Source: Flavobacterium sp. MDT1-60 (GTDB taxonomy: Bacteria; Bacteroidota; Bacteroidia; Flavobacteriales; Flavobacteriaceae). Taken from it: DNA of 64,000 nt. Of the stretch, positions 11,061 to 15,034 are shown piece after piece. The stretch's first letter is position 1, and each line of letters opens with the position of its first letter. The notes beneath the pieces were generated by a model, which did no database searches, was not told the DNA's origin, and saw nothing but the letters and a program-made list of their open reading frames with translations. The stretch spans positions 2,666,001 through 2,730,000 of the forward strand of contig NZ_CP062159.1 in the NCBI RefSeq assembly GCF_014844035.1, in the 5' to 3' direction. The position numbers and the translations under genes are program-made.

Positions 11061-11068
11061 TTATTTTT
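11061..11068 (+). promoter_or_regulatory. Candidate -7 element (TATTTTTG) for the EamA transporter
   Basis: TATTTTTG fits TAnnTTTG and lies 19 bp before the ATG at 11088. It also argues against a TTG start at 11067, which would sit inside this word. Confidence 0.45.
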
Positions 11069-11087
11069 GCACTCAAAATTTGAACCT

Positions 11088-11942
11088 ATGTTATTCCTTA
11101 TTTTAAGTATTCTGTGTAGTGTAATAGTTGGTGTTATATTCAAAATTACCCGAAAATATAATGTTAGTCCCATTCAAATTGTAGCATTCAATTACATATT
11201 TGCTCTACTGCTTTGTTACTTTACTTTTAAACCTGATATAAGTCAGGTCGATGGAAATGCTCCCTGGAATATTTACATCGCCATTGGTGTTTTACTACCA
11301 ATCGTTTTCCTGTTTTTAATTACTTCGATTAAACATATGGGAATCGTAAAAACCGATGCCGCACAACGATTATCACTTTTTATCCCTATACTGGCTGCCT
11401 GGTTTATTTTTAAGGAAGAATTTAATTCTTATAAAGTTATCGGACTCCTAATAGGCTTTGTGGCTCTTTTATTCATTCTCAAAAAACAATCAGCAAATAC
11501 AGAAAATAAGTGGATTTATCCAACGGTTGTTTTACTTGGTTTTGGCTTGATTGATATTCTTTTCAAACAAATAGCACTTTATACCACTTTACCTTATACA
11601 ACTTCTTTATTTGTAGTTTTTGATATTTCTTTAGCCATTTCTTTACTGGTTGTTGTTTATGAAATCGTTTTGAGAAAGGTAAAATTGAAAGCTAAAAATA
11701 TTCTTTTTGGAGGTTTGGTCGGAATTTTTAATTTCGGAAATATATTGTTTTACCTAAAAGCACATAAGGCATTTTCAGATAATCCGTCAACTGTTTTTGC
11801 CGGAATGAATATGGGTGTTATTATTTTAGGAAGTCTTGTTGGCTTGCTTTTTTTTAAAGAAAAATTATCCAAAATTAACTTCATTGGTCTCTTTTTGGCC
11901 TTAATTGCGATTGTTTTTATCGTTATTTCGCAATTTAAGTAA
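11088..11942 (+). CDS. EamA/DMT-superfamily membrane transporter
   Basis: 284 residues, almost entirely hydrophobic, with about ten transmembrane helices in two similar halves, the EamA layout. The first helix is MLFLILSILCSVIVGVIF. Internal-repeat features include FNYIFALLLCYF in half one and PSTVFAGMNMGVIILGSLVGLLFFKEKLS in half two, where the KEKLS turn is typical. These inner-membrane carriers export or import amino acids, nucleotides or sugars; the substrate cannot be told from sequence. Confidence 0.85.
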   Translation: MLFLILSILCSVIVGVIFKITRKYNVSPIQIVAFNYIFALLLCYFTFKPDISQVDGNAPWNIYIAIGVLLPIVFLFLITSIKHMGIVKTDAAQRLSLFIPILAAWFIFKEEFNSYKVIGLLIGFVALLFILKKQSANTENKWIYPTVVLLGFGLIDILFKQIALYTTLPYTTSLFVVFDISLAISLLVVVYEIVLRKVKLKAKNILFGGLVGIFNFGNILFYLKAHKAFSDNPSTVFAGMNMGVIILGSLVGLLFFKEKLSKINFIGLFLALIAIVFIVISQFK

Positions 11943-12048
11943 TTTTTTCTGTAGCTTAATTCGTTAATTTACAGGCTCTTTAATGTTAAGTTTTAAATTA
12001 TTCAAAAATAAACTCTACTAATTCTATAGAATTTAAGAAATATATTTA

Positions 12049-12056
12049 TAAATTTG
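12049..12056 (+). promoter_or_regulatory. Candidate -7 element (TAAATTTG) before the first cysteine-rich peptide
   Basis: TAAATTTG exactly fits TAnnTTTG and ends 8 bp before the ATG at 12065. Transcription would start only a few bases before the reading frame. Confidence 0.5.
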
Positions 12057-12064
12057 CCCCAACA

Positions 12065-12151
12065 ATGAAATACTCTAGTCAATATATCATTCAGGTCATG
12101 TGCGCCACCACGTTGTGTTGCATGATGAACTATGCAGTGAAATGGCGTTAA
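12065..12151 (+). CDS. 28-aa cysteine-containing leader-like peptide
   Basis: The open frame encodes MKYSSQYIIQVMCATTLCCM then MNYAVKWR, ending TAA. It has three cysteines in eight residues and paired Cys-Cys and Met-Met codons. It lies just after a -7-type promoter and 31 bp before a perfect intrinsic terminator, the layout of an attenuator leader peptide. The TGCATGA at 12119-12125 (Cys-Met-Met codons) is complementary to TCATGCA at 12189-12195 in the terminator's left arm, so an alternative fold is possible. Downstream lie a second cysteine-rich frame and a glutamate-dehydrogenase-type gene. Coding is inferred from layout only. Confidence 0.5.
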   Translation: MKYSSQYIIQVMCATTLCCMMNYAVKWR

Positions 12152-12182
12152 TAGAAAATCACTTGTTAGTTATTTTTTTTTT

Positions 12183-12213
12183 AGCCTTTCATGCACCATG
12201 AAAGGCTTTTTTT
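12183..12213 (+). terminator. Strong terminator between the two cysteine-rich peptides
   Basis: AGCCTTTCATG / CATGAAAGGCT is a perfect 11-bp stem with CAC loop followed by TTTTTT. It separates the first peptide frame from the second and from the dehydrogenase gene, so it may be conditional. Confidence 0.85.
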
Positions 12214-12236
12214 AGAACTATTAAAAAATTAAGGAA

Positions 12237-12332
12237 ATGAGATCAAATAGAAATACGAATATTATGATGCAGTGTTGTCTGATAAAAATTCCATGTTGTC
12301 GAATGTGCATGTGGAATAAACGCTTTTCATAA
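12237..12332 (+). CDS. 31-aa cysteine-rich leader-like peptide
   Basis: The frame MRSNRNTNIMMQCCLIKIPC then CRMCMWNKRFS carries five cysteines, including two CC pairs, and four Met in 31 codons. It starts after an AAGGAA stretch. Its last codons lie in the left arm of another hairpin (12323-12344). It stands 72 bp before the preferred dehydrogenase start. Cysteine is rare in this proteome, so two such frames in tandem are unlikely to be chance. It could be a regulatory leader or a metal-binding peptide; function unknown. Confidence 0.5.
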   Translation: MRSNRNTNIMMQCCLIKIPCCRMCMWNKRFS

Positions 12333-12352
12333 AAGAATGAAAAGGAGTTTTT
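12323..12352 (+). promoter_or_regulatory. Hairpin overlapping the end of the second peptide, before the dehydrogenase gene
   Basis: CTTTTCAT (12323-12330) pairs with ATGAAAAG (12337-12344), then GAGTTTTT. It may act as a weak terminator or translation control. The right arm contains AAAAGGAG, a Shine-Dalgarno-like run, just before ATG codons at 12354. Confidence 0.45.
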
Positions 12353-12404
12353 AATGATGAAAAAAAATACAAATCAAATATTCAAATTTAAAAATATATA
12401 CACT

Positions 12405-13691
12405 ATGAGTGCAGAAATAATTAAACAGAACCCCTTTCAATCGATGATTGATCGTTTTAATGTCGCAGCTGATATTCTTAATTTAGAGGAATCAATCAGA
12501 GAAAAATTACAACGTCCCGAAAAACAAATTGTCGTTAATTTTTCGATTGTGTTAGATAACGGAAAGGTTCAAAATTTTGAAGGATATCGCGTTATTCACA
12601 ATACAGCTTTGGGACCATCAAAAGGTGGAATTCGCTATGATACAGCCGTAAATCTTGATGAAGTTAAAGCACTTGCAGCCTGGATGACCTGGAAATCTGC
12701 CGTTATTGGAATTCCTTTTGGAGGAGCAAAAGGCGGTATCATTTGTGATCCCAGAAAACATTCTAAAACAGAATTAGAAAAAATTACCAGAGGCTACACC
12801 AAAGCATTAGCTGATATTTTTGGACCAAATAAAGATGTTCCGGCACCGGACATGGGAACAGGTCCTGACGAAATGGGCTGGTTAATGGATGAATTTTCGT
12901 TACTTCACGGCAAACCAATTCATGCTGTGGTAACCGGAAAACATTTGCATTCCGGAGGTTCTTTAGGAAGAGTAGAAGCAACCGGAAGAGGTGTGAGTAT
13001 TATTACGTTATTAGCCCTTCAAAAATTAAGATTAAGGCCTGCAAGATCTACTGCTGCTATTCAGGGATTTGGAAATGTAGGATTGCATTCGGCTTTGTTT
13101 TTATATGAAAAAGGAGTAAAAATTGTTGCGGTTAGTGATGTTTCAGAAGCTTTTTATAATCCTGACGGACTTAATATTCCAGAGTTAATCTTGTATTACA
13201 ACCTGAACAACAAAAACATTAAAGGGTATCCGAATTCAGGTGCTATTAAACACGAAGATTTGTTGCTCTTAGATGTTGATGTATTGATTCCGGCGGCTAA
13301 AGAAGATGTAATTACACAGAAAAATGCAAAGGATATTCGGGCCAAAATCATTGTGGAAGGAGCAAACGGACCTATTTCGTCAGATGCAGATAAAATATTG
13401 CATGATAATAAAGTTTTAGTTGTTCCTGATATTTTGGCGAATGCCGGAGGTGTAACCGTTTCTTATTTTGAATGGCTTCAGAATTCGCTTTTAGAATCAT
13501 GGAGAATTCATCAGATTAATACACGTTTGGAAGATATTTTGGAAAAAGGTTTTGAAACTGTTTTTAGAATTGCATTAAAACACAATGTGACGCCAAGAAT
13601 CGCAGCGTATATTATTGCTTTGCAAAAAGTGGCTGATACGCAAGCTGTAAAAGAGGTAGCATTAGAAGAACCAAAATTCAAACAGAATTAA
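12405..13691 (+). CDS. Glu/Leu/Phe/Val dehydrogenase (glutamate dehydrogenase, RocG/GudB-like)
   Basis: 428 residues from ATG 12405 (MSAEIIKQNPFQSMIDRFN); an in-frame start at 12354 would add 17 low-complexity residues. The substrate-binding block LGPSKGGIRYD, the catalytic Lys segment PFGGAKGGIICDPR, PAPDMGTGPDEMGW and the nucleotide-binding GFGNVG are present in order. The length matches RocG/GudB-type NAD-dependent enzymes. It would interconvert glutamate and 2-oxoglutarate plus ammonia in the cytoplasm. The gene is preceded by two cysteine-rich short frames with hairpins, which suggests leader control. Confidence 0.92.
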   Translation: MSAEIIKQNPFQSMIDRFNVAADILNLEESIREKLQRPEKQIVVNFSIVLDNGKVQNFEGYRVIHNTALGPSKGGIRYDTAVNLDEVKALAAWMTWKSAVIGIPFGGAKGGIICDPRKHSKTELEKITRGYTKALADIFGPNKDVPAPDMGTGPDEMGWLMDEFSLLHGKPIHAVVTGKHLHSGGSLGRVEATGRGVSIITLLALQKLRLRPARSTAAIQGFGNVGLHSALFLYEKGVKIVAVSDVSEAFYNPDGLNIPELILYYNLNNKNIKGYPNSGAIKHEDLLLLDVDVLIPAAKEDVITQKNAKDIRAKIIVEGANGPISSDADKILHDNKVLVVPDILANAGGVTVSYFEWLQNSLLESWRIHQINTRLEDILEKGFETVFRIALKHNVTPRIAAYIIALQKVADTQAVKEVALEEPKFKQN

Positions 13692-13810
13692 ATTTTTGTA
13701 ATAAGATTAAGATTATTTTCATCAGTTACAAAACTTGCGATTGCAATTTTTTGATTGATGAAAATGTCTTTTTTCGTTTTGTATCAAATCAATATAAAGT
13801 AATCTTTAAA

Positions 13811-15034
13811 ATGAGACATATTAATTTTCTCGCTTTCGCAATGCCTGCTTTTTTTCTGTTTCTGTTTTTAGAATATAAGCTGGCACAACGCAAAAAAAGA
13901 CCTGAGATTTTCAATTATGAAAGTTCTGTTTCAAACATTAGCATTGGTATTGCCGAAAGATTAATTAATCTTTTTATCGCTGCCAGTTTTTATCAATTGT
14001 ACTATTTGATTTATGATAATTACAGGCTTTTTGATATTCCGAGTACTATTTTTGTTTGGTTTGCCTTAATCCTCGCTACCGATTTTGTTTGGTATTGGTA
14101 TCATAGATTAGGACATGAAGTTAATTTTTTCTGGGCCGCGCATATCGTGCACCATCATAGTGAAGAATTTAATTTTACGGCTGCTGCCCGAATTACGACT
14201 TTTCAGGCAGTTATTCGAACAGGATTTTGGTGTGTTTTGCCTTTCGTTGGATTTCATCCGGCTATGGTTATTACAATGCTGATTGTTCATGGTGCGTATT
14301 CTTTTTTTACGCATACTCAACTTATCGGCAGAATAAAATGGCTCGAATATGTTTTTGTAACGCCTTCTGTTCATGGTGTTCATCATGCTTCTGATGAAAA
14401 ATATCTGGATAAAAATTACGGAGATATGTTTACTTTTTGGGATCGTCTTTTTGGAACTTTTCAGGAAGAGGAAGAAAAACCAAAATACGGATTGACCCAT
14501 CCGCTAAAAAGCTACAGTTTTCTTTGGCAGCATTTTCATTATTACTTTGAGATTTATGAATTATGGAGACGTTCCAATGGATTTAAAGCCAGATGGAAAG
14601 CCGTTTTTGGAAGTCCGGCACATATGGATCAGGATATTCGACCAACATTAGAAAAACGCTTTTTACAAGACAAGGAGAATCCCCATCAACGACTTCGATT
14701 CCGAAATTATCTTTATATTCAATTAGGAGTTTGCACTTTGCTTTTAACCGTTTTTACCTATTATTTTGAGTATTTAAATGCTTTAGATAAAGCTTTTGTG
14801 TTGTTCTTTATTCTTATTACATTGGTTAATTGCGGTGCTTTATTAGAACAGCGAAAATGGATTTACTATTTGGAATATGGCAGAATTTTTATGGTTACAA
14901 CCTATTTTTTATATGAAGAAGATTTGACAGTATTTTTCTTTGTACCATTAGCGATTATGATTTTTGCCGAGCAATTGTTTTCATTGAGCAAACGTTATCA
15001 AAATGTCGTGCTGCAGTTAGAGACTTCGGAGTAA
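13811..15034 (+). CDS. Membrane-bound sterol desaturase/fatty-acid hydroxylase family protein
   Basis: 407 residues from ATG 13811 (MRHINFLAFAMPAFF); upstream codons give no hydrophobic segment. The di-iron histidine boxes are visible in order: HRLGH, HIVHHH and HGVHHASD, embedded among membrane helices. A C-terminal four-helix membrane region follows (about 300-400). The family hydroxylates or desaturates lipid substrates using oxygen at the inner membrane; in Flavobacterium, lipid or ornithine-lipid hydroxylation is plausible but not shown. The TAA stop lies in the first unit of a tandem heptamer repeat. Confidence 0.87.
   Translation: MRHINFLAFAMPAFFLFLFLEYKLAQRKKRPEIFNYESSVSNISIGIAERLINLFIAASFYQLYYLIYDNYRLFDIPSTIFVWFALILATDFVWYWYHRLGHEVNFFWAAHIVHHHSEEFNFTAAARITTFQAVIRTGFWCVLPFVGFHPAMVITMLIVHGAYSFFTHTQLIGRIKWLEYVFVTPSVHGVHHASDEKYLDKNYGDMFTFWDRLFGTFQEEEEKPKYGLTHPLKSYSFLWQHFHYYFEIYELWRRSNGFKARWKAVFGSPAHMDQDIRPTLEKRFLQDKENPHQRLRFRNYLYIQLGVCTLLLTVFTYYFEYLNALDKAFVLFFILITLVNCGALLEQRKWIYYLEYGRIFMVTTYFLYEEDLTVFFFVPLAIMIFAEQLFSLSKRYQNVVLQLETSE

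Follow-up and report, generated by a model that had tools for sequence, protein, structure and literature searches.

A candidate sulfur-responsive control region with tandem cysteine-rich leader frames upstream of an accessory glutamate dehydrogenase gene in Flavobacterium

The locus and the conservation of its features

The window (the whole 64,000-nucleotide stretch of Flavobacterium sp. MDT1-60 DNA that was analyzed) contains a gene for a glutamate dehydrogenase of the ELFV family (positions 12405–13691; PF02812 and PF00208), which we propose to be regulated by the elements that precede it; this gene, the hydroxylase-type gene behind it, and the control elements are all on the + strand. A start at 12354, given by a mechanical open reading frame call, was unsupported, and the conserved start is 12405; translational control at the start of the gene was looked for by eye in an alignment of 12 orthologue loci. 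The nearest solved relatives of the protein are chains named glutamate dehydrogenase (1b3b, the best at 417.6 bits, 2tmg, and 1b26), which we take to be Thermotoga enzymes, and the KGG and SYFEW motifs, which presumably mark glutamate rather than leucine specificity, are retained. The enzyme is considered accessory because the genome holds other members of the family, and we know of no reason for a glutamate dehydrogenase to be an obvious sulfur gene. About 60 bases further 3′ lies a fatty-acid-hydroxylase-type gene (13751–15034, with a true start that may be later), which adjoins the dehydrogenase in 12/12 loci (L001–L012), is possibly co-transcribed with it, and weakly matches the OlsE model (58.2 bits versus a cut-off of 475). 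Before more distant dehydrogenases of the superfamily, at L016 and L020, short paired-Cys frames end just ahead of the gene; by eye these are unlike the leaders of the window.

The control region is bounded on its 5′ side by a transporter-like gene (11067–11942) and begins with a putative operator, AACTCTACTAATTCTATAGAAT, at 12011–12032. A -7 promoter box, TAAATTTG (12049–12056; consensus TAnnTTTG), precedes leader peptide 1 (frame 1, 12065–12151; 28 residues, MKYSSQYIIQVMCATTLCCMMNYAVKWR), which carries the putative control codons Cys-Cys-Met-Met (TGT TGC ATG ATG) at 12116–12127. An intrinsic terminator, T1 (12183–12214), follows, with a stem at 12183–12207 and then a T run; the predicted energy of the stem is −14.6 kcal/mol (z −5.71), and 0/200 shuffles were as good. 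Leader peptide 2 (frame 2, 12237–12332) has 31 residues with five cysteines, including two CC pairs, and the core MRSNRNTNIMMQCCLIKIPCC; it overlaps a weak hairpin (12323–12344), a candidate second terminator. The promoter box, the 28-residue cysteine frame, the perfect terminator, and the 31-residue frame had all been named in the original prediction, and each was confirmed. No Rfam family was found in the region at gathering scores, and the best of three sub-threshold matches in 11940–12420 had an E value of 0.29 and 17.5 bits versus 55.5. Elsewhere in the window are two Flavo-1 RNAs (RF01705; 58383–58460 and 31782–31868, both on the − strand; 72.9 and 62.7 bits), a motif whose function is unknown.

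The original prediction had proposed a comparison of the regions upstream of the orthologous genes in other Flavobacterium genomes. A search for the dehydrogenase covered 100 related genomes, 61 of them from the same genus (own genome included), and these 61 yielded 12 close orthologues with 87–100% identity. Frame 1 is present upstream of 11 of the 12, as is T1, and frame 2 is present upstream of all 12; the exception, L012, has neither frame 1 nor T1. When 15 bases at the end of frame 1 were used as a search pattern, 48 places in 47/299 same-genus genomes matched, compared with 7 for the reversed control. We took on 46 of these places, the other two (G049 and G057) being covered in the orthologue set, and dropped three (L055, L057, and L067) as chance matches, which left 43 loci with frame 1 and then the dehydrogenase. 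Both frames stand in the same order before the gene in 43/43, T1 is found in all 43, and the two sets of loci share 9 genomes. The 15 bases belong to the paired block of the antiterminator described below, so the constancy of this block and of the final Trp-Arg among the 43 loci is by construction. When named genomes were searched with the same pattern, at least 120 stretches matched; among the 80 matches listed, 17 are from Flavobacterium (including F. johnsoniae, F. hibernum, F. saccharophilum, and F. pectinovorum) and the other 63 are probably chance 15-mers.

Synonymous and nonsynonymous changes in the two frames, for which the original prediction had named a random pattern as counting against it, were not random. 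Pooled over related pairs and without tree correction, pN/pS for leader 1 was 0.40 in both the 28-residue class (27 distinct sequences) and the 29-residue class (13), with values of 1.02/0.60 and 1.40/0.65 for the other two frames. Leader 2, over its first 21 codons (41 distinct sequences), gave 0.23, with 1.36/0.81 in the other frames. The cysteine codons themselves vary between TGC and TGT (108 and 21, respectively, in leader 1; 66 and 100 in leader 2). These comparisons indicate that both frames evolve as protein. Cys-Cys lies exactly 9 codons from the leader 1 stop in 43/43 loci, and only two Cys are contiguous; a Met codon follows CC in 42/43 sequences, and one has CCK. An overlapping frame, MALIEKVLVSYFFF, was considered as a further peptide and dropped because the length of the poly-T run varies from 10 to 16 and shifts the frame.

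The promoter box is found exactly 8 nt 5′ of the frame 1 ATG in 43/43 loci. Its consensus and its position at −12 to −5 are those given in the accessible passages of PMC9723704. From this position and spacing, the 5′ UTR would be about 4 nt long, the start being placed from the box. The same passages put leaderless mRNAs at 5.5%, and the portion available of a study of F. johnsoniae (PMC6847099) reports leaders over 10 nt for 87% of predicted transcripts.

Terminator T1 and the predicted antiterminator

When the RNA stretch that begins at the Cys codons and closes with the terminator's 5′ arm was folded, a long helix was predicted unprompted: the end of frame 1 (AUGAAA-U-GGC) paired with that arm, GCCUUUCAU, and the purine tract after the stop codon paired with the poly-U run 5′ of the terminator. 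This second pairing would account for the odd poly-U run. In the window, the antiterminator 5′ strand (GUGAAA-U-GGC, 12137–12146) overlaps the end of leader 1, and the 3′ strand (12184–12192) coincides, by the predicted folds and the alignment, with the 5′ arm of T1; the fold of 12119–12192 has a predicted energy of −18.7 kcal/mol. The tail-to-arm antiterminator was obtained in 7/7 printed sequences and by RNAalifold on 36 distinct sequences, and adding the 3′ arm switched the predicted fold to the terminator in 7/7 sequences. The z-scores of the antiterminator in five species were −3.28 (the window), −2.66, −1.46, −3.02, and −3.53, the fold being weak relative to shuffles in one of the five (L035, z −1.46, 18/200). 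The paired block is nearly invariant at the dehydrogenase locus, so covariation must come from other loci. An alternative fold suggested in the original prediction, in which TGCATGA of the first frame pairs with TCATGCA of the terminator arm, is possible in the window, but many relatives have TCATTGCA, TCATACCC, or TCATAAAA in place of TCATGCA; this pairing was superseded by that of the leader tail, GUGAAAUGGC, with GCCUUUCAU.

The specificity of the tail pairing was assessed in several ways. With only 7–8 bases of the 5′ arm, which misses half of the helix, the pairing was no better than in shuffles (0/43 loci below p 0.05). The full arm gave moderate values for single dehydrogenase leaders (p 0.02, 0.104, 0.066, and 0.05), and several leaders of the met locus described below exceeded p 0.1. 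In a set of 26 leaders picked from four unrelated arm classes (4 dehydrogenase and 22 met-locus leaders), each tail preferred its own arm in 26/26 cases after the background of each arm was subtracted; in raw energy, with no such subtraction, its own arm was best for 15/20 leaders of the set. Tail-to-arm pairing as such is not rare: of the 73 short frames that precede a hairpin in 464 kb of the window's genome, 21 show at least 5 pairs, and 17 of these are not Cys/Met leaders. The pairing therefore counts only together with the other features.

Frame 1 and T1 could also form an independent small gene or small RNA, with the dehydrogenase read from a promoter located after T1. T1 is indeed strong, and a short transcript is expected in either case. 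Such a promoter was not apparent: no TAnnTTTG box occurs between T1 and the gene in 43/43 loci, and a sigma-70 scan of this interval gave one weak match, of a kind no commoner than in shuffles. Frame 1 and T1 are, moreover, situated immediately 5′ of the dehydrogenase in all 43 kept loci, and we regard an independent small gene as very improbable. The folding and comparative results support, in silico, the view that frame 1 and the hairpin at 12183–12207 constitute a complete transcription attenuator, with an antiterminator that is predicted to exclude T1 and to be masked by a ribosome at the stop codon.

Leaders of the same type and a shared DNA site

Similar leaders were looked for at other genes. 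Short patterns mostly match other genes: a search of six genomes with TGYTGYATGATG returned 19 matches (2 for the reversed control), of which 4 were leader-type places, and further short patterns in six genomes gave 24, 7, and 8 matches (reversed controls of 5, 3, and 5), with 5, 2, and 5 leader-type places, respectively. A search with ATGTGYTGYATGATG found 80 places in 65/299 genomes compared with 2 for the reversed control. Among 31 of these places, in 30 loci, 15 precede metY (14 loci), 6 precede the dehydrogenase, and 3 precede sulfate or cysteine genes (cysH-cysD; cysD; and serine acetyltransferase with, behind it, a cysK-like gene that is truncated at the end of the locus), all three with a terminator and a predicted antiterminator; the remaining 7 are inside other genes or unresolved. 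At the 24 resolved places, every target other than the dehydrogenase belongs to sulfur assimilation.

The search with TGYTGYATGATG led to a second place of similar plan, built as leader MNLTAKNMCCMMSEQSAE, terminator, leader MKNSTVNKMMMCCKMPMCIQSCCCQK, terminator, a 61-residue frame, and metY. The metY of the window's genome scores 644 bits against TIGR01326 (cut-off 495.1). Relatives of metY gave 27 matches in 25/60 genomes. Of 21 loci analyzed, 20 carry one or more Cys/Met leaders that are followed by a terminator, and L139 also has a leader; in the 6 remaining matches, which are more distant or have shortened flanks, no Cys/Met leader with a terminator was found. Two loci, L152 and L153, have divergent leaders that consist almost wholly of Met, with a single Cys in each. 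At the met loci the leader end copies the terminator 3′ arm with differing sequences (GCAGAG/CUCUGC, CGGG/CCCG, UGGG/CCCA, and CCAAAAG/CUUUUGG). In the met locus of the window's genome (L281:1-13000), two pairs of leader-terminator units make four in total, and the tail of the fourth forms only 4 pairs. A metX-like gene of this locus (180 bits, below the cut-off of 500) is preceded by a SAM riboswitch (75.8 bits), and metK by a SAM-II match (48 bits). The locus ends with an Rrf2 gene, and small uncharacterized frames lie between its leaders and genes. Genome G030 has two metY copies about 3 kb apart (L140 and L159), each with tandem Cys/Met leaders. Among the short frames followed by a hairpin in the 464 kb, we judge only those of the window and of the met locus to be convincing Cys-type leader attenuators.

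The leaders of metY, cysE-cysK, cysH-cysD, and cysD in Flavobacterium thus resemble the dehydrogenase leader in having MCCMM, 3–4 codons, and a tail that mimics the terminator 3′ arm, whereas their arm sequences are unrelated to that of the dehydrogenase. The metY locus additionally shares with the dehydrogenase a second, MMxCC leader after the terminator and the 22-base operator, and it keeps a strong second terminator, which the dehydrogenase loci mostly do not have.

Frame 2 aligns, by eye and with MAFFT, with the second metY leader over an MM.CC....C core. The alignment hints at sharing or copying of the entire pair, but identity to the window's frame is only 16–27%, in peptides this short. 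The hairpin that the original prediction had placed at 12323–12344 does exist in the window (−6.9 kcal/mol, z −2.34, 6/200 shuffles as good), but it is not conserved: a candidate terminator after frame 2 (at most −6 kcal/mol, loops of 3–13) was found in only 4/43 dehydrogenase loci, the window's among them. The terminator after frame 2 is strong at metY and also at L012 (−12.8 kcal/mol at L012). Since the second hairpin is not conserved, frame 2 is best described as a conserved leader-like frame for which no terminator was found in most species. It is the better conserved peptide of the two, and the end of its core, K-[IV]-[PL]-C, is kept in 43/43 loci.

This conservation, together with the low pN/pS of 0.23 and the scarcity of terminators behind the frame, is what would be expected if one or both peptides were functional products, e.g., in thiol or metal binding, and the hairpins were ordinary terminators; metal binding had been raised in the original prediction as well. 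The C-terminus of frame 2 is nevertheless variable, from 0 to about 20 residues. For frame 1, metal binding is disfavored by the match of its tail to the terminator arm, and the unrelated metY and cys leaders share with it the control codons and the tail rule, not the arm sequence. We therefore consider functional peptides improbable, and as a rival this explanation stays mainly with frame 2.

The second shared feature is the 22-base DNA site. AACTCTACTAATTCTATAGAAT or a close variant lies 31–33 nt 5′ of frame 1 in 43/43 loci, and L012, which is without frame 1, still has the site (L335). AACTCGACTAATTCGATAGAAT, in reverse orientation at metY of the window's genome, is identical at 22/22 positions to the metY-derived consensus, and the window's own copy agrees at 20/22. 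In 464 kb of the genome, matches of at least 18/22 occur at the dehydrogenase and metY only, the next best being 17. With up to 3 mismatches, the whole genome has 5 sites (0 for the reversed control), and eight genomes have 3–11 each, 54 in total compared with 1 for the reversed control. Among the 21 metY loci, a site of at least 17 lies close to the leader in 6 (L134–L138 and L140).

Neighbors of such sites include sulfatases (PF00884), SusC-type receptors, MoeA, a PhyH gene, a fatty-acid hydroxylase, and a serine O-acetyltransferase (above the cut-off of the EpsC model and below that for cysE); one genome has a site beside its met-locus Rrf2 regulator gene. As for the other three sites of the window's genome, a sulfatase and a fatty-acid hydroxylase are found by one, a SusC-type receptor by another, and a receptor together with an MFS transporter by the third; a sulfur role for the genes near these three sites is mostly putative, which counts against a sulfur-regulon reading. 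In 5/12 printed loci the site directly follows a -7 box, as expected for a repressor site; at the dehydrogenase it is upstream of the box. The left half of the site resembles what we take to be IscR-type sites, and the met-locus regulator is an Rrf2 protein by Pfam (127.7 bits), with scores below the cut-offs of the curated CymR (78.4 bits versus 195) and IscR (69.9 versus 207.55) models. We regard an Rrf2-family repressor as the probable candidate for the protein that would bind the site. A distant relative of the hydroxylase behind the dehydrogenase (31% over 213 residues; L362:923-1978) adjoins an operator site and a sulfatase.

Leader-like Cys frames were inspected at 20 other site loci, where we found the metY leader, one polycysteine frame before the PhyH gene, and three weak candidates without a terminator. 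The PhyH locus, sought via the neighboring SDR gene, is present in 8/100 genomes, and by eye a Cys tract of 4 to 8 codons accompanies the site in 8/8 loci, as closed short frames in 3 and running on in 5. Between the SDR and PhyH genes (L369–L376), the polycysteine frame (e.g., MSSKRNMFNFPKSQMHANMRMCCCCCCSCC) comes right after the operator-like site, and in 5/8 it runs toward or over the PhyH start; from its sequence it looks like a translational, not terminator-type, cysteine switch. Two receptor genes (L361 and L363, SusC-type by model in L363) have an operator and tiny Cys frames (MKKMHRCCI and MKKRMCR, by eye) with an inverted repeat behind them, e.g., GCCATTTCTG..CAGAAATGGC.

These loci bear on the nature of the signal. 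Attenuation may be real while the signal is chiefly methionine, or a general slowing of translation, with the Cys codons only helping. The Met codon behind CC in 42/43 leaders, the nearly pure Met tracts with one Cys each at L152 and L153, and the fact that the nearest regulon is a methionine locus with SAM riboswitches are all consistent with this possibility. It fits less well with the presence of CC in 43/43 leaders while the following residues vary (including one CCK), with the MCCMM leaders at cysE-cysK and cysH-cysD, and with the Cys tract beside the same type of operator before the PhyH gene in 8/8 loci. A predominantly methionine signal appears unlikely on balance.

Proposed mechanism and relation to known systems

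The central claim of the original prediction, an attenuator leader peptide with Cys/Met codons ahead of a glutamate dehydrogenase gene, is supported by the comparative tests: the frames and the terminator are kept, selection is purifying in frame, the distance from CC to the stop is fixed, an exclusive antiterminator is predicted, and the same device precedes recognized sulfur-amino-acid genes. We consider it likely, from sequence comparison, that 12011–12404 controls an accessory glutamate dehydrogenase in response to sulfur, combining Cys/Met attenuation with a shared DNA site. The best reading of these data would place the dehydrogenase in a sulfur-limitation regulon, where it would be de-attenuated when charged Cys-tRNA (or Met-tRNA) is short.

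We infer that leader 1 is translated, that ribosomes stall within it, and that control has the following direction. Transcription would start about 4 nt 5′ of leader 1, as placed from the box, and ribosomes would load onto an almost leaderless transcript. With plentiful Cys-tRNA (and probably Met-tRNA), the ribosome would reach the stop codon and cover GUGAAAUGGC, leaving GCCUUUCAU free, so that T1 would form and transcription would end at about 12214. If instead charged Cys-tRNA were scarce, the ribosome would stall at the Cys-Cys-Met-Met codons and leave the tail available for pairing with GCCUUUCAU, and the purine tract for pairing with the poly-U run; T1 could not form, and RNA polymerase would continue via leader 2, whose own role may be that of a further leader, into the dehydrogenase. 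A second layer may be provided by the DNA site common to metY and to genes near sulfur functions, probably through an Rrf2-family repressor.

A wider reading, plausible and offered tentatively, is a two-layer sulfur-limitation regulon of Flavobacterium, consisting of an Rrf2-type operator and Cys/Met attenuators, that extends past sulfur assimilation to the dehydrogenase and the adjoining hydroxylase and, on cysteine shortage, would rewire nitrogen flow and perhaps membrane lipids. The genus is known for sulfonolipids, and the two hydroxylase genes could possibly serve lipid remodeling under sulfur limitation.

As a candidate for cysteine-dependent transcription attenuation in Bacteroidota, the locus is conserved and easy to test, and in it a nitrogen-metabolism enzyme is under apparent sulfur control. 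It also suggests a simple rule for mapping the sulfur regulon across the genus, namely, an MCCMM leader whose tail copies the terminator arm, together with the 22-base site. In the passages found of the Bacteroidota literature, leader peptides are mentioned only in general terms. For Flavobacterium psychrophilum, of the same genus and with the same -7 box, attenuation was inferred upstream of amino-acid biosynthesis operons (PMC9723704), and for Bacteroides thetaiotaomicron, short frames in long 5′ UTRs were likened to leader peptides (PMC7366714); unlike the system described here, these passages name neither a cysteine leader nor glutamate dehydrogenase. According to PMC6847099, the mRNAs of this phylum lack Shine-Dalgarno sequences. 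The open-access literature, in the portions accessible, yielded no report of cysteine leaders in Flavobacterium or of a glutamate dehydrogenase so controlled, and no paper by title on Rrf2 or sulfur control in this group; most subscription journals were outside this scope.

Among the closest described systems are the mycobacterial polycysteine leaderless short open reading frames, which attenuate downstream translation (Canestrari et al. 2020, as cited in PMC9094748 and PMC9031893). To the extent that these citing passages describe them, they have in common with the dehydrogenase leader a short frame 5′ of the regulated gene in which Cys codons are contiguous; the mycobacterial frames are leaderless, and the dehydrogenase leader would be nearly so, judging from its promoter box. 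The dehydrogenase leader differs in its strong intrinsic terminator and predicted antiterminator, in its CC followed by Met codons, and in belonging to another phylum; on our reading of those passages, the mycobacterial frame acts without a terminator, whereas here the strong T1 stands before the gene.

In trp, his, and thr attenuation of E. coli, a short leader with control codons is combined with a terminator and an antiterminator. The dehydrogenase leader has the same arrangement, with control codons just before the stop, a terminator, and a predicted exclusive antiterminator that uses the leader end. It departs from the E. coli systems in its Cys/Met control codons, the near-leaderless start placed from the promoter box, the extension of the antiterminator by the purine tract and poly-U run, the tandem second leader, and the glutamate dehydrogenase target. 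The type of mechanism is thus known, and its combination of parts and its target are new as far as our literature search goes.
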